A stretch of 64,000 bases of DNA from Geminocystis sp. NIES-3708. GTDB lineage: Bacteria > Cyanobacteriota > Cyanobacteriia > Cyanobacteriales > Cyanobacteriaceae. Below are positions 6,788 through 27,357 of this stretch, piece by piece; the stretch's first letter is position 1, and each line of letters begins with the position of its first letter. The position numbers were made by a program, and so were the translations under genes. The notes beneath the pieces were generated by a model. It was given only the letters and a program-made list of their open reading frames with translations. It was not told where the DNA came from and ran no database searches. The stretch is taken from NCBI RefSeq assembly GCF_001548095.1, contig NZ_AP014815.1, positions 1,983,656-2,047,655 of the forward strand. Direction: 5' to 3'.

Positions 6788-9580
6788 TTAATGGTTATTT
6801 TCGGTATCAGAAATTGCTAAGTTTAAAGCTAATATTTGGGTTAATAAATCATCATTTTCATCGAAATTATAAGCCTTCATTACTAACTTATCTAACTGTT
6901 GATGAAGTTGATATAATTTACTACTTGGCTCATGAAAAAAAGCATTATATAACTGCGTAATTCCCCATTGTTTTCTCTCCATTTGTTCTGTTCTATAATT
7001 ATGTAATTCTGTCATTTTCTTCCTTATTTGTTGCACAATTTTCTCAGCTTCTAAATCCCCCATAACGGCAAGATTTAACAAGGGGCTTAAGCCCTTTGCC
7101 TTGTTATTAATTACTCCTCCAGAATTAGAAGCAGAAGGGCAAATGAGGGGAAACGGGAAGGTTTCAAAACAAGTTGTATTAGTATATGCTGGAGTTTCTC
7201 CTAAAGTTGAACTTTGAGCCTTAGCCCAAATACGATGAATTTTTGATGTTAAAATACCTAAAATATAAAAATCATTAGAAGCAACAATGACTGATTTATC
7301 TCCTGCTAACCAATCAGGATAAAAAGGAATAAATACAAACCATTTAGACACTCTAGGCACAGCAAAACAGAAAGGTAAATCTTTAATTGCTGTTCGCATA
7401 TTTGGACGATAGCGTAAGAAAAGCCACCAGTTTTCTCTAGCTTTTTTATCTCTATTTTTATCTCTTTCTGGCTTAACATTTTCCCTAATATATTCAAAAG
7501 GTAATTTATAATCAGAAGCCGATTCAAGACTTAAATTATTGAAATCAATAATCCATCTATCAGGTTTTCCCTGAGGATTACTAGCTAAATTATCTCCCAT
7601 TGAAAATAGTTTAATTACTTCTTTATTTTTAGCATCTCTTTTCATAAATTCTTGGGCTTGTTTTTCCGTAATTATAAAACCTTTTCCTACGGGTAAAACT
7701 CCTTGAAAACAAAGATTTTGATTCGCTTTTATTTTCTTAGCTTGGGTAACATCAACTTCTGAAGTTAGAGAAGTATTAATACTATTTACGAACTGATTAT
7801 CTAAGATATAACTATTAGGAATAGTCTTACACCAATTAACAATACTAACATGAACGGCGGCTTCTCCTGACCATTCTTGAGTCGAAATTGCTTCATGAAT
7901 ATAACCTTTATTTTGCATAATATAATCAAGGGATGCTTTACGGCTTTTTCCTTGAGAAATAGAGTTAGTTGCTACTAATCCAGCCCTCCCATTTTCCTCT
8001 AAATTATCATGGGTAATTTTAAACCAATAACTACAAAAATCTACTGAATCTTTAACATCTTTAAACTTAGTAAATATTTTCTCTACATAATCATCGCTTA
8101 AATTTAGTCTCATGTGTTTCCCTCCTAAAAAAGGAGGATTTCCGATAATAGCATCGGCTTTTTGCCAATCAGTAAATAAAGCATCGGTACAAATTATGTT
8201 ATTATCTAAACTGTCTAAAGGTAAAGCAGGTTCAGTTAAATTAAACTTATCAATTGCCACTTTTCTAGCTATCATTAAAGTAACTTTTGCTAACTCTACT
8301 GCAAAGGGGTTAATGTCCATACCATAAAACTGATTTGGAGTAACAAAACTGAGATTAGTTTGTACATTTTTACCTTTACTTTTACTAGCAATTTTATCTA
8401 ATAATAACTGTTCAATTCTCTTTAATTCTTGATAGGCAACGTATAAAAAATTACCACTACCACAGGCAGGATCTAATACTTTATAATCTTGTAATTGAAT
8501 TTGTAAATTAGTCAAATCTTTGATGGTATTTGCACTGTCGATTAATTCCTCCCAATATTTGCTGATGGTGGGGCGTATAATTTTCATAATATCCGCTTCA
8601 GAGGTGTAGTGCATCCCGTAACTATGTCTTTCTTGGGCGTTAACAGTGCCTTCAAAAATGTTACCAAAAATTGCAGGACGTATTTTACTCCAATCTTGCT
8701 TCGCAACGGTGACTAAAATATCTAATTCTGGTTTAGTTAATTCAATGGCTTCTACGGTAGCGAATAAACCACCGTTAAAGTATTCCACCCCTTGATATTT
8801 TCCCGTTGGTGTTACTCCTTTATTATTCATTTCTCGAAATAAACCACCCAACACATCATAACTATTCGCCCCTTCTAGGCATTCTTCCACGCAACGAATA
8901 AACAGATTATTCGGTAATAAGCCTCTGTCTTCGGCAAACATCCCCAAGACGCATTGCAAAATAAATCTTTGTATTTTTAATGTGTGATTATTAGAATTAC
9001 TTTCACCCCCTAACTCTCTCTCCCACTGGCGAGAAGGAGTAAGACGTTTTTGTAGGATTTGGAATAATTCCCCTAGTCGTCGCCCTGCTTTTTCGGTGAC
9101 ATCCACTTGATTATTTTTAAAAATTGGCTTACTCTCACTCCTTGCCATGAAGTTAAAAGCCGAATCTCTTATCACTAAATCGGCGATCGCCACAACATCT
9201 ACAGGTTCATCTAATTGTAAGTCAAAGTCGAAAATCCAAAATTCATCAAAGTTGCATAAAATGACGTATCGAGGGCGATTTGGCACTAATCTTGACCAAT
9301 ATTCAAAGGCTTGAGGATAATGTTTAGATAAGTCTTCTCCTCGTTTTTTCATCTCGATTAATAACTTGGGTTTCCAAACTAAATCAGCAAAACCTGTATT
9401 TTTCTTTTTACTGCCTTTTTTTATGGCTTCTTCGTATTTCGCCCCCGCTTCTAATGCACCATCATAACCAAAAGCCTGAAAAAATCTGTCTAAAAATATT
9501 TGTGCTTCTTTTCTTTCTTGTCCTGTTATATGTTCTTTACAAAAGTTAATAAAAGTTTGCAGATTTTCTTTTGTGGTCAT
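6788..9580 (-). CDS. type IIG/IIL restriction-modification enzyme (MmeI-like)
   Basis: A 930-residue single-chain enzyme. The N-terminus has a PD-(D/E)xK-type nuclease core: GFADLVW (D66) followed by LIEMKKRG (E76, K78). A helical connector leads to an N6-adenine methyltransferase: VLDPACGSGNFLYVAY (SAM motif I, residues 369-384), YGMDINPFAVELAK, and ADAIIGNPPFLGG with the NPPF catalytic motif at 482-485. The C-terminal third should hold the target recognition domain. Such enzymes cut DNA on one side of their site and methylate one strand for protection. No separate methylase, specificity subunit or nuclease is adjacent, consistent with a self-contained system. All motifs look intact. The recognition sequence cannot be read from the protein. 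Confidence 0.88.
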   Translation of the reverse strand: MTTKENLQTFINFCKEHITGQERKEAQIFLDRFFQAFGYDGALEAGAKYEEAIKKGSKKKNTGFADLVWKPKLLIEMKKRGEDLSKHYPQAFEYWSRLVPNRPRYVILCNFDEFWIFDFDLQLDEPVDVVAIADLVIRDSAFNFMARSESKPIFKNNQVDVTEKAGRRLGELFQILQKRLTPSRQWERELGGESNSNNHTLKIQRFILQCVLGMFAEDRGLLPNNLFIRCVEECLEGANSYDVLGGLFREMNNKGVTPTGKYQGVEYFNGGLFATVEAIELTKPELDILVTVAKQDWSKIRPAIFGNIFEGTVNAQERHSYGMHYTSEADIMKIIRPTISKYWEELIDSANTIKDLTNLQIQLQDYKVLDPACGSGNFLYVAYQELKRIEQLLLDKIASKSKGKNVQTNLSFVTPNQFYGMDINPFAVELAKVTLMIARKVAIDKFNLTEPALPLDSLDNNIICTDALFTDWQKADAIIGNPPFLGGKHMRLNLSDDYVEKIFTKFKDVKDSVDFCSYWFKITHDNLEENGRAGLVATNSISQGKSRKASLDYIMQNKGYIHEAISTQEWSGEAAVHVSIVNWCKTIPNSYILDNQFVNSINTSLTSEVDVTQAKKIKANQNLCFQGVLPVGKGFIITEKQAQEFMKRDAKNKEVIKLFSMGDNLASNPQGKPDRWIIDFNNLSLESASDYKLPFEYIRENVKPERDKNRDKKARENWWLFLRYRPNMRTAIKDLPFCFAVPRVSKWFVFIPFYPDWLAGDKSVIVASNDFYILGILTSKIHRIWAKAQSSTLGETPAYTNTTCFETFPFPLICPSASNSGGVINNKAKGLSPLLNLAVMGDLEAEKIVQQIRKKMTELHNYRTEQMERKQWGITQLYNAFFHEPSSKLYQLHQQLDKLVMKAYNFDENDDLLTQILALNLAISDTENNH

Positions 9581-19262: not shown

Positions 19263-19865
19263 GGTAAAGGTACATCTTTGCAACAAAAATAATGTATTAA
19301 GAGGCGAATGGAATAATTCAACATTTTTGCGGATTTAGAATCACATAGTGTTTTGCGATGTAGTCTTGCCAAATAATGTCTTAATCTTGTATTTTTGCCT
19401 TCTACTTTTGTAATATATATTTTACTGATAATGAGTAAGATCGACCTCAGGGATAAATTATGGATGTACTTTCCAACCATCTGTTACATAAAAATAGGAT
19501 TTCCATTTTTTCACTTCTTCCCATAACGGTTGAAACGTCTGTGCACTATGATCTCTACCTAATCTAAAATTCCTTGTTTAAAGTGATTTACTGCCGTCCA
19601 AATCCATATTTTGTTTTTTTTTCACTCACAAATGTTTCCAATTCATCTAATTCTCCGACTTGTGTTACAACCTCTGTTTGATAAGCATTTGGCAACGGAC
19701 TGCCAACTTGTTTAACCCATTTACTGTGGTGTAATGAACATCTTTAACCCGTTCAATGGCTCGAAAACCCATACCATTGACGTACATCTTTAGGCAATCT
19801 CGACGAATCTGGTCGGAATAACATCGTTGCCTTTCTTTGAGTACTGTTAATAAATTGACGAGAAC
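19250..19865 (-). mobile_element. IS1-family remnant (InsA/InsB-like, frameshifted, 5' truncated)
   Basis: On the minus strand, from the right, CYSDQIRRDCLKMYVNGMGF followed by RAIERVKDVHYTTVN is the InsA-type helix-turn-helix. After a frameshift near 19740, WVKQVGSPLPNAY and VGELDELETFVSEKK continue the transposase. A later segment, KVEGKNTRLRHYLARLHRKT, then LCDSKSAKMLNYSIRLLIHY, is the InsB catalytic C-terminus. At least two frame changes and a missing N-terminal zinc-finger part make it inactive. Its 5' end stops exactly at the left terminal repeat of the IS4 element at 19866, so the IS4 insertion or a later deletion removed the rest. Confidence 0.8.
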
Positions 19866-19879
19866 CTGAGGGGGCGACA
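19866..19879 (+). repeat. left terminal inverted repeat of IS4 element
   Basis: CTGAGGGGGCGACA. It differs at one position from the right repeat, and the second copy starts with CTGAGGAAGCGACA. Confidence 0.85.
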
Positions 19880-19975
19880 ATGAAGGTAAACAGACGATGG
19901 CATAAGAGATTGAAGCTGGTAATCTGGATAAAAATAAGATGTTTTTAGTTTTTATATTAATTACTATAGAAAAAG

Positions 19976-21127
19976 ATGTTTCAACTTCCCCAATTTTATC
20001 AGGAGTATTTAAAAAAACAGTTTAATTTACCTCAATATTTAACTCTTTGTCTTTTAGTTAATTTACTTCAAAATCTTAAAACTGTTAGGTTAGAAGAAAT
20101 GGCAAAACTTTTTCCTTATCCGATTAAATTAAGAAGTAGAATTAAAAAGTTACAAAGATTTTTAAGTCTGAAAAATTGGAAAGTTGAAACCATATGGTTT
20201 CCGATTTTAAAATCATGGATTATGAACCAATGGGAATCAAACAAAGTAATTTATTTAGTCATGGATAGAACACAGTGGCAAAACATTAATATATTGATGG
20301 TAAGTTTAGTTCATCATCAAGGAGCTATCCCTGTATATTTTATCTGATTAAATAAAAAAGGAAGTAGTAATTTATCAGAACAAAAACAAGTATTAGAAGC
20401 AAGTATTAATTTATTAATTGAATATAAAATAATCGTTTTAGGAGATAGAGAATTTTGCTCTGTGGATTTAGCAAAATGGTTATCAGTAGAGAAACAGGTT
20501 TATTTATCTCTACGTTTAAAAAAGAGTGAATATGTGGAGTTAGAAACTGATATATGGTTTCGATTGAGTGAATTAGGTTTATCTCCAGGATTCTCCGTAT
20601 ATTATCGAGGAATAAAAGTTACAAAAACCAAGGGATTCTCAGGAATTAATTTAGCAGCAAAATGGAAGAAAAACTATAGACATAAATCGAGTAAACAGCC
20701 ATGGTTTATTCTCACAAATTTAGAAAGTATGTCGGAAACAATCTCTGCTTATTCCAAAAGAATGGGTATTGAAGAAATGTTTAGAGATTTTAAATTAGGA
20801 GGTTATAACTTAGAAAGTACAAAACTTGAAAATGAACGACTAATTTCTTTAATTATACTGATAACATTATCCTATAGTTATTCAACATTTATAGGAGAAG
20901 AAATTAAAAGAAAAGGAATAAGTGAATATCTAGTTAGACCCACAGAAAAAAGAAGAAGATATAAAAGATATAGTGATTTTTCTATTGGTTTAAATGGGAT
21001 AAAATGGCTAAGTGAAATCTGCTTTTTTCAAGAACAATTAGATAAGTTAACCTCTTTATTTCCTCAGAAACAGTCCTATTATCGTCAAGGTATGAGGGCT
21101 ATTTCCCTTATCCAATCTGCATTCTGA
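19976..21127 (+). pseudogene. IS4-family transposase with one internal TGA
   Basis: A 383-codon frame is open except for TGA at 20345-20347, between PVYFI and LNKKGSSNLSEQ, a site where a Trp codon (TGG) is likely. All catalytic parts are present on both sides: first Asp in LVMDRTQWQ, second Asp in IVLGDREFCS, and the IS4 YREK signature in YSKRMGIEEMFRDFK (Y-x2-R-x3-E-x6-K). There is no frameshift. The simplest reading is a recent point nonsense mutation. Readthrough could restore a full transposase but there is no evidence for it. The second copy at 21911 carries different damage. Confidence 0.88.
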
Positions 21128-21133
21128 ATGTTC

Positions 21134-21147
21134 TGTCGCACCCTCAG
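21134..21147 (-). repeat. right terminal inverted repeat of IS4 element
   Basis: On the plus strand TGTCGCACCCTCAG, seven bases after the transposase stop codon region. It pairs with the left repeat with one mismatch. Confidence 0.85.
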
Positions 21148-21529
21148 GCTATCAACTCAATTAAGAGCTATTTCTCCCGATAATTTGTTGAAACTTTCAG
21201 AGTCACAATTAAGAGAATGCGAACTGTCTCGGCAAAAGATTAATTATTTGCAAAATATTGCTTCGGTTTTTATCGATGGATTTTTAACTCCTGAACAATG
21301 ACATGAAATGAATAATGAACAGGTACTTAAATAATTAACCCAAATCAAAGATATTGGACAATGAACCGTTCAAATGTTTCTGATTTTTTACTTACAACGT
21401 CCAGATCTTTTACCATTAAAAGACATCGGTTTAGTAAATATTATCAAACAACATTATGCTGATCTAACTTTATCACAGATAACCGAATTATCTAAAAAAT
21501 GGCAATCTTACAGAACCGTAGCCATATAA
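21148..21529 (+). pseudogene. AlkA-like DNA-3-methyladenine glycosylase remnant
   Basis: The frame immediately right of the IS4 end reads LSTQLRAISPDNLLKLSESQ, then SRQKINYLQNIASVF, then LTQIKDIGQ-stop-TVQMFLIFYLQRPDLLPLKD. This is the helix-hairpin-helix region of AlkA/OGG-type glycosylases, normally LxxIxGIGxWTAxMFLL.RPD.fP..D with the catalytic Asp last. Three internal stops interrupt it: TGA at 21298-21300, TAA at 21331-21333 and TGA at 21361-21363. The third sits at the invariant Trp. The 5' end is missing, replaced by the IS. The gene once removed alkylated bases from DNA. Confidence 0.8.
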
Positions 21530-21655
21530 TATAGTATCTCTGGCTATCTTATGATGGTGTTGCTATTTATTATTAATATAATAATTTTATGTGGTATTTT
21601 AAAAATGAAGATACTTCATTTCTCTTGAAAATATTAAATTAAGTACTCGGTAAAA

Positions 21656-21910
21656 ATGACCATAAATCAAACTATTAAAGAAAAGGTTAAATTATTAGCA
21701 CAAGAATCCTTACAAAATTCTAAACTTTCAGACTGGTTTGATCTTCTTTATAAACAAGCAGGAGAGGATGCGACACAAAATCCTTGGGCAAAAATGCAAC
21801 CTTATTCTTATTTTCAAAATTAGCTGAATGAACTTCAGCTCAATAAATTATGAGGATTAAATAGTCTGGTAATTGGTTGTGGATTAGGAGATGATGCTGA
21901 AGCCTTAGCT
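21656..21910 (+). pseudogene. thiopurine methyltransferase-like SAM methyltransferase, truncated
   Basis: The frame from ATG 21656 reads SDWFDLLYKQAGEDATQNPW, then AKMQPYSYFQN, a TAG stop (21821-21823, at an expected Trp), LNELQLNKL, a TGA stop (21851-21853), then SLVIGCGLGDDAEALAL. The last is the SAM-binding motif I of the TPMT-like class I methyltransferase family (VVGCGLGDDAEaLA). It is cut at that point by the second IS4 copy, whose left end begins at 21911. The rest of the Rossmann fold is absent. Inactive. Confidence 0.8.
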
Positions 21911-22238
21911 CTGAGGAAGCGACAATGAAGCTAAACAGACGATGCGATAAAGGATTGAACAGGGTAATCTGAATAAAGATGAGATGTTTTCAGTTTTTAT
22001 ATTAATTGCTATAGAAAAAGATGTTTGAACTTCCTCAATTTTATCAGAACCATTTAAAAAAACAGTTTAATTTATCTTAATATTTAACTCTTTATCTTTC
22101 AGTTAACTTACTCCAAAATATTAAAACTGTCAGGTTAGAAAAAATGGTAAAATGTTTTCCTTATCTGATTAAATTAAGAAGTAGAATTAAAAAGTTACAA
22201 CGATTTCTGAGTCTGGAAAATTGGAAAGTTGAAACTAT
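21911..22238 (+). mobile_element. partial second copy of the IS4-family element (left end only)
   Basis: It begins with CTGAGGAAGCGACA, matching the left repeat of the 19866 element at 12 of 14 bases, and stays clearly similar to it for about 330 bp, through the transposase start (ATG 22021) to GAAACTAT. The copy has a CAA-to-TAA change in the Leu-Pro-Gln-Tyr region and lacks the rest of the gene and the right end. It truncates the methyltransferase gene. Confidence 0.85.
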
Positions 22239-22367
22239 GATCTGATAAATAATTAACAGTATGTTTAGGATACAACCAACGTGCTAAATCTTTGAAATGA
22301 TTAATCATTAGTGATTTCTTAGAAGTTGGTATTTTTATGGAAAATGTCGAAACTCAAAATTTCTGTC

Positions 22368-22680
22368 TTAAAAGTTTGATCGAACTCTATGATGTTTTAA
22401 GAATCTTCTGCTTTTCAATTCTTGTATTTGACAATTAGCTTCTTTCCCCGCCAGTAAACTACATTTTTTGATCGTAGTTGTGAAGAGGAGATTAAGGAAT
22501 TGATTGCGGTTAAAATTACCCATAAATGTCCCATAAGCACAAATAGCTTCGGGATATTGAGTCACTAAACCATAGTTTAAATCACGAGGTATCTGGGGGA
22601 TATACTTTTCCCAACGAAACTCATCCACTGTTAACTATGCGGTAATAGCGATGGGTGCAATAACTTGATTTTTTCGGCAT
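22368..22680 (-). pseudogene. unrecognised coding remnant
   Basis: On the minus strand an open segment reads QVIAPIAITA, a TAG stop (22633-22635), then TVDEFRWEKYIPQIPRDLNY and GLVTQYPEAICAYGTFMGNF. The composition and the continuity across the stop look like real protein, with the stop probably a CAG-to-TAG change. I do not recognise the family. Both ends are lost, one near the partial IS4 copy and one near the group II intron. A different frame just upstream (DAPLCFANAEKIK, about 22670-22710) resembles the STAS end of SulP sulfate transporters, which may mean two fused remnants. Confidence 0.45.
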
Positions 22681-22727
22681 TAGCAAAGCACAGAGGGGCA
22701 TCTTGACATTCACTCGTTACAGTCAAA

Positions 22728-24524
22728 CTAAGCATAGATGTCACCATCTACCCTTGTCTTCAGAACGGAACGTGAGACTTTTACCTCATTCCGCTCCTCT
22801 GGAATAAACCCTTTGTCATGGGTACAATTCAGACTTCCATCTCTGGTTGTCTTATCATCGTGGCAATGTCTATGTAGAGCTTGTAGATTGTCATATTTAT
22901 CCTTTCCGCCTTTCGATTTGGGGATAATGTGGTCGATTTCTAACAAGTCTCCAGCTTTGAAGTTCAGTTTGCAGTGATTACATTTTCCTTTTTGTTTCTT
23001 TAATAATATTGCCATTCTTGTAGAAACTTCAGGATGTTTGCCTATTCTTGCCGTCCAGTAAATCCAGTCACCATCGTAAGGTGATTTCTCTCCTTTAACT
23101 TTAGTGTGACGCTTGATTTCTGTTTTGCTATGGTTTAATAGTCTTATTCCATCTTCATCTCTGGTTGAGAACGTCCAGTTATCTTCTCCATAAGTACGCC
23201 AATATTTCTTGACTACCCATGATTTCGATTTATTGGGGTGTCTTCTTTCACTCCATCTTTTCAACTGTTTATATATCAGGTGGTCACATTTAGAGTAAGT
23301 CTCTTTACTGCACACAGAGCTATAGTAATTTGCCCAACCTCTTATTACTGGGTTAAGTTCCATTATCAGGGCTATTTGTGGACTTGATTTATGACTTCTG
23401 ATTATATTTCCAGTCTTATTAATGTGAGTTTTTATTTTTTCCTTTGATGGTTTTATTATGGTCTTAAATCCAAGAGGTACACCTTGACTGTTAATTCTAG
23501 TGTGTGTTTTACCTACTTCATATTGTCGGATGTTGAATCCTAAGAAGTCAAACCCTATTTTTTCTTCGTACTCATAAAGAGTGTGAGATATTTGGGTTTT
23601 GCTTGGTTTAAGTTCAAGTCCTATTTCTTCTAACCAGTTCTCGATGATACTTTTACATTGGAAAATAACCTCTATATCTCTATGAAGAATGACGAAATCA
23701 TCTGCATATCGAATAAGAGATAGGCTAGATTCATTTGCTTTCTTGTCACCTTTTAATGTTCTGGCAAACTTTTTAATTTCTAGTTCCATACCGTGAAGGG
23801 CAATATTTGCAAGTAGTGGAGATATGACTCCTCCCTGCGGAGTGCCTTCCTTAGTAGGAAACCATTGTTTGCTGTCCATTACTCCACTTTTTAACCATGA
23901 TTTTATCTCACGTTTTAATTGTGGGTAGGTTTCCAGTTTAGCGAGTAATTTTTCATGATTGATTTTGTCAAAGCATTTAGCAATATCAGCGTCTAATACA
24001 TATTTCGGTTGTAGCCTTATTGAATTAAATATAGCTCTTATTGCGTCATGACATGACCTTGCTGGTCGAAAACCATAGCTATTCGGCTCGAATTTGGCTT
24101 CCCATTGTGGTTCTAATGCTAGTTTTACTTGGCATTGTTTTACTCTATCTTCCATACACGGTATTCCAAGTGGTCTTTTTTCTCCATTCGCTTTTGGTAT
24201 CCATACCCTACGAGTAGGTTTTGATTTACCTTTTAACTTTAGGTTTTTGACCATTTCAACACGTTGTTTCTGAGTGAGTGATTTAATACCATCAACACCT
24301 GCTGTTTTCTTGCCTTGATTATCTTGTGCTACCTTTGTGGTTGCCAAGAGTTTACCATAGTAGGATTTGATTAGTAATCTTTGCAGACTATGAACCAATT
24401 TAACATCGCCTCTTTGACTCGCTCTGTAAATTCTTTTTTGTAGCCGAAATACTTGTTTCTCTACAACTTTCCAGTTGATAGATGACCACTTATTAATTTT
24501 ATCAATCGGTTGTACCGTTGTCAT
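22728..24524 (-). CDS. ltrA: group II intron-encoded reverse transcriptase/maturase with HNH nuclease
   Basis: A 598-residue protein with all domains in order: N-terminal RT0 region (TRRVWIPKANGEKRPLGIPC near residue 104), RT core with DADIAKCFDKINH (178-190), GTPQGGVISPLLANI (228-242) and the catalytic YADD at 273-276, the maturase/X domain with NPVIRGWANYY near 391, and a C-terminal HNH endonuclease with CNHC (515-518), EIDHIIPKSKGG (529-540) and HRHCHDDKT (551-559). It splices the intron RNA and, by target-primed reverse transcription, inserts it into DNA. No frameshift or stop is seen, in contrast to the surrounding genes. Confidence 0.95.
   Translation of the reverse strand: MTTVQPIDKINKWSSINWKVVEKQVFRLQKRIYRASQRGDVKLVHSLQRLLIKSYYGKLLATTKVAQDNQGKKTAGVDGIKSLTQKQRVEMVKNLKLKGKSKPTRRVWIPKANGEKRPLGIPCMEDRVKQCQVKLALEPQWEAKFEPNSYGFRPARSCHDAIRAIFNSIRLQPKYVLDADIAKCFDKINHEKLLAKLETYPQLKREIKSWLKSGVMDSKQWFPTKEGTPQGGVISPLLANIALHGMELEIKKFARTLKGDKKANESSLSLIRYADDFVILHRDIEVIFQCKSIIENWLEEIGLELKPSKTQISHTLYEYEEKIGFDFLGFNIRQYEVGKTHTRINSQGVPLGFKTIIKPSKEKIKTHINKTGNIIRSHKSSPQIALIMELNPVIRGWANYYSSVCSKETYSKCDHLIYKQLKRWSERRHPNKSKSWVVKKYWRTYGEDNWTFSTRDEDGIRLLNHSKTEIKRHTKVKGEKSPYDGDWIYWTARIGKHPEVSTRMAILLKKQKGKCNHCKLNFKAGDLLEIDHIIPKSKGGKDKYDNLQALHRHCHDDKTTRDGSLNCTHDKGFIPEERNEVKVSRSVLKTRVDGDIYA
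22763..22796 (-). ncRNA. group II intron domain V
   Basis: The 34-nt hairpin has an 8-bp lower stem, AGC triad, CG bulge and an upper stem TGAG/CTCA. This is the catalytic core of the intron RNA and confirms the element and its orientation. Confidence 0.9.
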
Positions 24525-25146: not shown

Positions 25147-27357
25147 TTATTCGACTATGACAAAGCCAAGAAAATTAAGGTTATAAGTCTGAATTCTTTG
25201 TATTGCTTCGGTTAATAAACTATGAGATGTTTCTTTTAATTTGACCACAAAAACAATGCCTTGGGTTTTTTCTGCTAATAAACTGAGATCATAAGATTGA
25301 AGAAAGAAAGAGCTGTTATATAAAATTAACGTATAATCTTCACTGATAGAATGAATTAAAGATTGGGTTTCTTCTCCTCCAATACTAAAAGGTAAATCAG
25401 CATCGTTAGTGCCGACGGTAAGGATTGAAACATTTTGTTCACAGCCTATTTCCGTGATAATAGAATCTTGAATAATCGGAAACTGCAATAAATCAGTTAA
25501 GCCTTTGCGAATAGGTTGGTCAAAATATTCTTGAATCTCTGGCTGTATAATATTAGTGTCTATTAGCAATACTTTCTCGTCAAGTTTAGCCGCCGTTTTT
25601 GCTAAATTAGCTGCAATATATGCTTGTCCATCATCAGGATTTAGAGAAGAAATCAGTAGATAATTTTTATTATTATGGGGTAATTGAAAATATATATTCG
25701 TATAAATTTCTGATAAAGAAACTTGAGATGGAGGTATAGTTTTATGAACACGAGAAGATTCTTCAAAAAAGTTTCCTTCTTCTAAATTTGACTTCTTTTT
25801 CCCTTCAGGATCTAATAATATTTTTCCTAAAATGGGTAATCCAAAATAGTATTTTAAATCACTTTCTTCATAGAAAATATCTCGTTTTTTTTCAATAGCA
25901 ATGGCAGCAATAATGCCTAATATTAAACCTGTACCAATACCGAAACTAATTTTTTTTGTGGGATCTGATTTAGCTCCTTTTATATTACCATATTCATCAA
26001 TAGGAATCTGTGGCTTTGACAGTAATTGCCAAGGAATTTGTTTTTGAGCGATTTCTACTGCTAAAGTTTCTCGTTGTGCGGTGAGTTGATTAAGGATAGC
26101 GGTATCAAGACTAATTTGTCGTTCTAATTCATTATATTTTTTAATTACGTCTGGTATTATCTCTAAATTATTCCCAGTTTGAATTTGGTTTTGACTTAAG
26201 GATTGATAACGAGAAGAAAGAGTATCAATTTGATTTTGAGTTTCAATTAATTTTTGAATTAAATTAAGGCGATTATTATCTTGAAAAGCAAATACTCTGG
26301 GGTTAATATTAGGATTAATATTATTTTGGTTTAAAATTTTTGTGGTTTCTTGATTAACTAAATTACTAATATTATCTCGTTGTTCTTTCAGGTTTAATAA
26401 AGTAGGATGATTTGATGTTAATTTTGCAGATTCTAAAGCAATTTGAGATTCTATTTGTTGTAATTGAATTAATAATTGTTGTCTTTTTGGTTCTTGACTT
26501 AATGTTGAAGCAATAAGAGATTCTTCTACCGATAATCCCAGATCTTTTTGTAAATTATTTGATAAGACATTTAACTCTTTTAATTGAGATTCTAATGTTA
26601 ACAATTCTTGGTTAGATGCTGTATTTATTTGAAATAAACTATCTCCTTTAACGGCAGGATTAACCAATTGATTTTCTAATTGTAACTTTTGTTGTTGATT
26701 TTGTAAGTTATTAATCCTATTCTTTATTTTTGGTAATTGTTCATTAATAAATTTTACTCCTGAATCCAGACTTTTTTCTCGTTCTGTTTTACTATATTCT
26801 AAATATTTATCAGCAATTGTATTTAATACTAATAGTACAAAATCAGGATCTAAACTTTTATATCTAACAGTAATAATTTTTGTGGTATCAAGTCTATTTT
26901 TTTGACCTTCTTTTGCCTGTTCCACTATCAAACTATCATTAAAACTATCTAATAGAAAATCTTTAGGAATATTAGAATATCTATTACTAATATTTGTGGC
27001 AATGTCATTTAATATTTCTCTACTTTTTAAAATCCTTAAAATAGTGGGATAATCTATACTTAAAAGACGCTCATCAACATTACCTCCAGTTCGTGCTAAA
27101 GTACTAGCATCTGTTATTTTGTCTGCGGAAGTTGCTGGTTCAACTAACATTTCAAAATTACCAGAATAAGTTATAGGATCTCGACTAGAAATGGCAAAAG
27201 CAGGAAAAAAACCAATCATAATAAATCCTACAATAATTAACCATTTACGTTTTAAAATATTTAGATAAAATCTTAATTTATTTCTCTGATTTATTGCTGA
27301 AGTTTGGTTAACATTTTCAAGTTCTTCACCAGAGAATTTATCAATTTCATATATCAC
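25147..27357 (-). CDS. Wzc-like polysaccharide co-polymerase with degenerate kinase domain
   Basis: A 736-residue inner-membrane protein: first membrane helix at about residues 34-53, a long periplasmic Wzz/GNVR region with coiled coils, a second helix at about 470-490, then a cytoplasmic domain with the fold of bacterial tyrosine kinases (BY-kinases). It should control chain length and export of a surface polysaccharide. The P-loop is lost: the usual PGEGKST is replaced in SSLNPDDGQAYIAANLA (about 569-585). The second Walker motif reads VLLIDTNIIQP and the Walker B Asp is absent (YTLILYNSSFF). There is no tyrosine cluster at the C-terminus. The start is GTG 27357; no ATG is available before residue 47. 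Confidence 0.85.
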   Translation of the reverse strand: MIYEIDKFSGEELENVNQTSAINQRNKLRFYLNILKRKWLIIVGFIMIGFFPAFAISSRDPITYSGNFEMLVEPATSADKITDASTLARTGGNVDERLLSIDYPTILRILKSREILNDIATNISNRYSNIPKDFLLDSFNDSLIVEQAKEGQKNRLDTTKIITVRYKSLDPDFVLLVLNTIADKYLEYSKTEREKSLDSGVKFINEQLPKIKNRINNLQNQQQKLQLENQLVNPAVKGDSLFQINTASNQELLTLESQLKELNVLSNNLQKDLGLSVEESLIASTLSQEPKRQQLLIQLQQIESQIALESAKLTSNHPTLLNLKEQRDNISNLVNQETTKILNQNNINPNINPRVFAFQDNNRLNLIQKLIETQNQIDTLSSRYQSLSQNQIQTGNNLEIIPDVIKKYNELERQISLDTAILNQLTAQRETLAVEIAQKQIPWQLLSKPQIPIDEYGNIKGAKSDPTKKISFGIGTGLILGIIAAIAIEKKRDIFYEESDLKYYFGLPILGKILLDPEGKKKSNLEEGNFFEESSRVHKTIPPSQVSLSEIYTNIYFQLPHNNKNYLLISSLNPDDGQAYIAANLAKTAAKLDEKVLLIDTNIIQPEIQEYFDQPIRKGLTDLLQFPIIQDSIITEIGCEQNVSILTVGTNDADLPFSIGGEETQSLIHSISEDYTLILYNSSFFLQSYDLSLLAEKTQGIVFVVKLKETSHSLLTEAIQRIQTYNLNFLGFVIVE

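Follow-up and report, generated by a model that had tools for sequence, protein, structure and literature searches.

A remnant tract in Geminocystis sp. NIES-3708: ordinary decay and a transposase stop codon that probably spread among insertion-sequence copies

The tract at 19286-22727 of the window, by which we mean the whole 64,000-nucleotide stretch of DNA analysed here (the freshwater cyanobacterium Geminocystis sp. NIES-3708, contig NZ_AP014815.1, positions 1,983,656 to 2,047,655 of the forward strand), is a pile of remnants lying beside an open reading frame for a group II intron reverse transcriptase. The host genome, labelled G000, consists of six contigs. The parts of the tract, in window coordinates, are as follows.

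19286-19802, minus strand: IS1-type insertion-sequence remnant with 71% identity to the query element (genome place G000:C1:2002941-2003457; the family name comes from a Pfam DDE_Tnp_IS1 match on a related copy, L226)
19866-21147, plus strand: copy 1 (L009) of an IS4-family, IS10-type insertion sequence, 1282 bp, with the ends CTGAGGGGGCGACA and TGTCGCACCCTCAG
19976-21127, plus strand: transposase frame of copy 1, broken by TGA at 20345-20347, codon 124 of 383, which is Leu in the sister element
21149-21532, plus strand: 3′ part of an AlkA-type DNA-3-methyladenine glycosylase pseudogene, with stops at 21299, 21332, 21362 and 21527
21656-21910, plus strand: 5′ part of a methyltransferase pseudogene, with stops at 21821 and 21851
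21911-22238, plus strand: copy 2, a truncated, older copy of the same IS4-family element, 88% identical, with TAA at 22078
22377-22670, minus strand: conserved-protein remnant that matches neither Pfam nor NCBIfam, with TAG at 22635-22637
22728-24524, minus strand: group II intron reverse transcriptase/maturase with an HNH domain, open frame of 598 aa, forming the right edge of the tract

Large truncations mark several of these parts: the AlkA remnant lacks its 5′ part, and the methyltransferase remnant and copy 2 are cut short. An earlier description based on the letters of this stretch, here called the sequence-only reading, had taken the AlkA, methyltransferase, copy-2 and conserved-protein parts for pseudogenes, and this is supported. 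It had also described frameshifts as few, which agrees with the alignments to the nearest homologues: these contain no gap over 384, 243 and 294 bases, nor is there one in the 328 bases of copy 2. The aligned stretches of the tract thus hold no indel, compared with seven events in seven decayed pieces of the IS4-family element elsewhere in the genome. NIES-3708 also encodes a methyltransferase paralogue with an open 258-aa frame and Pfam methyltransferase domains (L095; matched part G000:C1:1708587-1708736), and a relative of the conserved protein with an open 233-aa frame (matched part G000:C1:2257410-2257670). Longer open frames related to the conserved-protein remnant at 22377-22670 (relative L102) occur in genomes G002 (on a 49,712-bp contig), G009 and G004 as well as in NIES-3708.

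All eight stops named in the sequence-only reading are present, some of them one or two bases from where it had placed them: TGA at 20345, TGA at 21299 (given as 21298), TAA at 21332 (21331), TGA at 21362 (21361), TAG at 21821, TGA at 21851, TAA at 22078 in copy 2 and, on the minus strand, TAG at 22635-22637 (22633). The AlkA remnant carries a ninth, a TAA at 21527, which was absent from that account. Codons at these sites were compared with homologues from four of 13 other places for AlkA, four of 15 for the methyltransferase and five of seven for the conserved protein. Codons 51, 72 and 127 of the AlkA remnant are TGG in all four homologues and codon 62 is CAA or CAG in all four; that is, the four AlkA stops face, in order, Trp, Gln, Trp and Trp, the last of them (TAA at 21527) being two changes away from Trp. 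Codon 56 of the methyltransferase remnant (TAG at 21821) is TGG in all four homologues, the TAG of the conserved-protein remnant stands at a TGG in all five homologues used, and the TAA of copy 2 corresponds to CAA in copy 1. The idea that the stops arose from Trp or Gln codons by transition therefore fits six of the eight named stops, or seven of nine with the one at 21527, but not the TGA at 21851 and the TGA at 20345. The former, at methyltransferase codon 66, faces Ser (TCA) in the intact NIES-3708 paralogue, a transversion, and GGG, ACT and CAA in three distant homologues. The latter is a T-to-G transversion of the Leu codon TTA, which stands at codon 124 in the sister element and in the two long NIES-3708 copies without TGA; in 21 family members this residue is Leu in 16, Phe, Val, Ile or Ser in five, and Trp or Gln in none.

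A transition can create a stop only from CAA, CAG, CGA or TGG, that is, from Gln, CGA-Arg or Trp codons, and a Trp/Gln pattern thus follows from transition bias. Our yardstick for the bias of this genome was the seven decayed pieces of the IS4-family element mentioned above, hence decayed insertion-sequence pieces rather than synonymous sites of many genes, with changes counted only at sites where copy L018 of NIES-3708 matches the sister element. Matches of 30-51 bp (L032-L034, among 27 element matches) were left out, and pieces from other genomes (L005, L006), tallied at first, were excluded from the total. C-to-T changes on either strand made up 88 of the 201 polarised changes in the seven pieces, and with the element's base make-up taken into account the rate of C-to-T per G:C site was about seven times that of T-to-C per A:T site. 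Within the tract, C-to-T was likewise the commonest change, as had been claimed, with 37 of 67 (copy 2, 13/22; AlkA, 12/25; methyltransferase, 6/13; conserved-protein remnant, 6/7), but it is not peculiar to the tract. On the decayed pieces used for comparison, its share elsewhere is not significantly lower, either against the total (p=0.12) or against copy 2 (Fisher p=0.18), and the excess over the rest of the genome that would mark deamination hypermutation confined to the tract was not found. The tract count became 29 of 59 with stop codons left out (p=0.55) and 40 of 69 with another methyltransferase outgroup (p=0.050); AlkA polarised with two outgroups rather than three gave 16 of 36, which was kept out of the totals.

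The stops themselves can be weighed in the same way. Under the genome spectrum, Trp and Gln codons are expected to supply a share of nonsense changes of 0.72 in the AlkA homologue, 0.59 in the methyltransferase paralogue and 0.53 in the sister insertion sequence, and with 53-72% of nonsense so expected, seven of nine is unremarkable: the probability of at least seven Trp/Gln stops among nine is 0.09-0.46 at expected shares of 0.5-0.7. With the insertion-sequence stop omitted, the probability of at least seven among eight is 0.035-0.26, the value of 0.035 applying when the expected share is only 0.5. The counts show decay under the genome's spectrum, with stops therefore mostly at Trp and Gln codons, and once that spectrum is allowed for, the Trp/Gln stops are no more than chance. 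An effect specific to the tract is unnecessary, and a mild excess may still be compatible with the counts that gave p=0.050 and a probability of 0.035. Mutation in bacteria is reportedly AT-biased (Hershberg and Petrov 2010, listed among the references of PMC10710837). Such a bias, acting in ordinary bacterial pseudogene decay, leaves C-to-T/G-to-A as the largest class and stops mostly at Trp and Gln, as here, and we found no difference between the tract and decay of this kind. The stop pattern of the tract is ordinary gene decay; striking as the run of Trp/Gln stops is, it needs no special mutator, and the genome's decay spectrum suffices.

The TGA of copy 1 stands apart from this pattern and leads to the element that carries it. 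IS10-type elements are characterized, in the available text of PMC2266710, by a length of 1200-1350 bp, CT ends and 9-bp direct repeats. The NIES-3708 element is 1282 bp long, has CT ends (CTGAGG) and is flanked by 9-bp repeats at eight of its 12 long copies. It also shares the DDE and YREK motifs of that description, since D97, D157, Y258, R261, E265 and K272 of the D..D..E and Y-(2)-R-(3)-E-(6)-K signatures are nearly invariant in the alignment, and the NCBIfam IS4 transposase model scores 164.4 bits for the part beyond the stop (cut-off, 152). It differs from the description, as far as that text goes, in lacking a single uninterrupted transposase gene: the frame is broken in all 12 long copies. 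The broken frame is a loss within a member, not the mark of another family.

The 12 long copies were found in a search that scored 40 of 161 candidates. Ten of them (L009-L017 and L020) have TGA at codon 124; L018 and L019 retain TTA at that codon yet are stopped elsewhere, at Trp codons 86 and 101. Extra damage is seen in L017 (one base lost), L019 (without its first 36 bases) and L020 (split by another element of the IS1-type group). The eight copies that keep a 9-bp target duplication, one with a mismatch, include seven of the ten with TGA. Three full-length copies, L009 (window 19866-21147), L010 and L012, are without a matching 9-bp duplication, which suggests recombination or deletion at their flanks; beside L009, the 5′ part of AlkA is missing. 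The haplotypes are nested: TTA gives way to TGA, a change at position 398 follows, and two subgroups split off last. The stop thus either predates most of the present copies or was copied between them, and no four-gamete violation was seen at the four shared sites.

In the sister genome G002 all four long copies have an open frame, and no internal stop occurs in any of the 15 elements that form four clusters, each within one genome of another cyanobacterium (80 of 136 relatives were retained for this comparison). A single broken element is nothing unusual in the family: in the first clustering nine of 54 long ones had a stop. L158, which has one stop and comes from the genome of the largest cluster, joined that cluster in neither clustering. 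The possibility that a plasmid carries the source copy was considered and rejected, since among the 40 of 161 candidates scored only 30- and 43-bp element pieces lie outside the chromosome. Among deposited plasmids, the 24 records with relatives were all 60-80% identical and none covered 80% of the element. No publication on this element was found among the top literature matches listed.

We consider it very likely that the tract is made up of dead insertion sequences and gene fragments in ordinary decay, and that the copy-1 stop spread among the copies of its element. That the TGA is common to ten of 12 long copies points to spread rather than to local decay. The AlkA, methyltransferase, copy-2 and conserved-protein remnants would have decayed under the genome's normal spectrum, which favours G:C to A:T transitions, and the copy-1 TGA would be a separate T-to-G event at a Leu codon that was then passed on. 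The spread may have run through help in trans from an open copy since lost, or through gene conversion between copies, two routes that look alike in these data. With no four-gamete violation at the four shared sites, the IS4-type family gives no sign of its own of conversion. The IS1-type family of the same genome behaves otherwise. Ten of its copies were looked at; L227 (cut by a contig end), L234 (of another length) and L224-L226 (another subgroup) were dropped. Over the six copies compared base by base, all four combinations occur at five of the ten site pairs, and a TAG is common to two of the six. The copies with TAG, L230 (G000:C1:455005-455706) and L231 (G000:C1:534407-535108), differ in background. 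With two of six copies sharing that stop the family is mixed, and it was rejected as a healthy control. Its mosaic sites make gene conversion or mis-assembly plausible in this genome.

Two described systems resemble the proposed spread. ISAm1 of Acaryochloris marina CCMEE 5410 is a cyanobacterial insertion sequence with nine nearly identical copies, most of them broken, and in the available part of their report its authors state that broken copies may be mobilised by the complete one (PMC8763236). According to the same text, ISAm1 retains one complete copy and owes its stops to frameshifts, whereas in NIES-3708 none of the 12 copies is open and ten have a common nonsense codon. Insertion-sequence copies in Wolbachia wBm, highly similar and broken by stops or frameshifts, are kept alike by gene conversion, according to work cited in the accessible portion of PMC3196728; the NIES-3708 element differs in that target duplications persist at eight of 12 copies. 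What deserves keeping is this family of near-identical long copies, none of them intact and the majority stopped at one shared nonsense codon: if the copies are correctly assembled, it offers a natural test of help in trans for cis-acting transposases against gene conversion that keeps dead copies alike.

An unlikely alternative that still carries some weight is selection for silencing, in which a burst was followed by an advantage for hosts whose copies were broken, so that nonsense changes became over-represented and every long copy is dead. On open-frame branches, all three polarised in-frame point changes are nonsense (the stem of the TGA group, L018 and L019), an outcome with a chance of about 0.0008 if 9.4% of changes are nonsense. 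To place the stops, a structure was predicted for a relative (L115, mean pLDDT 77.7); in it the helices span residues 6-85, and the first three core strands lie at 91-124. On this model, the stops at codons 86, 101 and 124 of 383 would all fall past the N-terminal helical domain, and each would leave it whole. However, the numbers are very small and the test was picked after the data were seen; over all nine in-frame point changes within the clade (six amino-acid changes, three stops, none silent), a nonsense count of three gives p=0.045. We take selection for silencing as a hint only.

It is also quite unlikely, although errors in repeats are a real possibility given in-silico gap closure, that the common stop is over-represented because a consensus pooled over the repeats was used to fill the copies in. 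The NIES-3708 assembly combined 454 with MiSeq reads, used 8-kb paired libraries and had its gaps closed in silico (PMC4424290). The use of gap closure and the mosaic haplotypes of the IS1-type copies would favour such an artefact. Against it, individual copies differ by changes of their own and codon 124 is still TTA in two of them, so they were at least partly resolved, and the 8-kb paired libraries can span a 1.3-kb element.

The sequence-only reading had called stop-codon readthrough a less likely alternative. For the genes of the tract this judgement stands; for the transposase, readthrough or a two-piece enzyme is unlikely too, with two small observations in its favour. On such an account the TGA at 20345 is tolerated, some transposase is made, and copies with the stop kept moving. 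The ten of 12 long copies with TGA, their nested haplotypes and the target duplications at seven of the ten would agree with it. So would the residue at position 116, the first of the two observations: it is Arg in L013 and L020, as in all 21 other family rows, and Gly in the remaining NIES-3708 copies. The second is that the transposases of Tn10, Tn5 and IS911 are described as cis-acting in the available text of PMC6182136, which would make help in trans less easy. Against readthrough, the open G002 copies and the stop-free clusters of other cyanobacteria indicate that the TGA is not a conserved device; the sister element has TTA, and the stop is absent from 21 of 21 family rows. TGA also ends three of the 40 window ORFs of at least 150 aa (3/37 under a less clean choice of ORFs) and so works as a stop, and the nine in-frame point changes, six amino-acid changes and three stops, include none that is silent. 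Ordinary readthrough requires no suppressor tRNA. For suppression by tRNA, ARAGORN called no stop-reading anticodon at 43 tRNA places, two fewer than the 45 tRNA genes counted in the genome paper (PMC4424290); with TGA ending window ORFs as above, suppressor tRNA or recoding is unlikely. IS4 transposase genes are described as without frameshifting in PMC2266710. The Arg at codon 116 of L013 and L020, both TGA copies, is encoded by CGA, the other NIES-3708 copies having GGA and the sister element AGA, and is apparently a return to Arg by a codon other than the sister's.

A related and highly improbable idea is a self-limiting element, in which leaky termination or a two-piece transposase would leave the element slightly mobile while the 123-residue product competed at the terminal repeats and kept transposition low, so that such copies might outlive open ones. 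A role of the truncated 123-residue product as a repressor would be speculation built on the predicted fold.

The AlkA remnant bears on the sequence-only proposal that loss of a repair glycosylase lay behind the C-to-T changes. It is 70% identical over 128 codons to homologue L067, whose place agrees with a gene annotated as DNA-3-methyladenine glycosylase 2 on plasmid pGM3709_07 of NIES-3709, and with its four stops it is an AlkA-type pseudogene. The G002 homologue lies on a 37,779-bp contig. A 54-aa piece of AlkA matched 12 of 40 genomes, NIES-3708 included, and had no match in G001 and G003, two of the other four same-genus genomes; this patchiness suggests an accessory gene. Within NIES-3708 the piece had no second match, and an HhH-GPD search of the genome gave one other match, with an open frame. 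Uracil repair does not appear to be lost, as a uracil-DNA-glycosylase-family gene is present with a PF03167 match above cut-off and an open 226-aa frame. AlkA is a glycosylase for alkylpurines, with hypoxanthine as a further possible substrate, as the available text of a review has it (PMC8307549), and its loss is therefore not expected to raise C-to-T. That deaminated bases persisted in this tract for want of AlkA and C-to-T accumulated there is thus barely credible: C-to-T is the largest class at 37 of 67 and the one AlkA-type gene matched by the 54-aa piece is broken, but losing a diffusible repair enzyme would affect the whole genome rather than one tract, the share elsewhere (88 of 201) is similar, the uracil-DNA-glycosylase-family gene is open and the AlkA substrates described in that review are different ones.

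Beyond the tract, a 736-aa ORF beside the intron (window 25147-27357) has no Pfam match at E 0.001, and window 6788-9580 encodes an MmeI-like restriction-modification protein of 930 aa.
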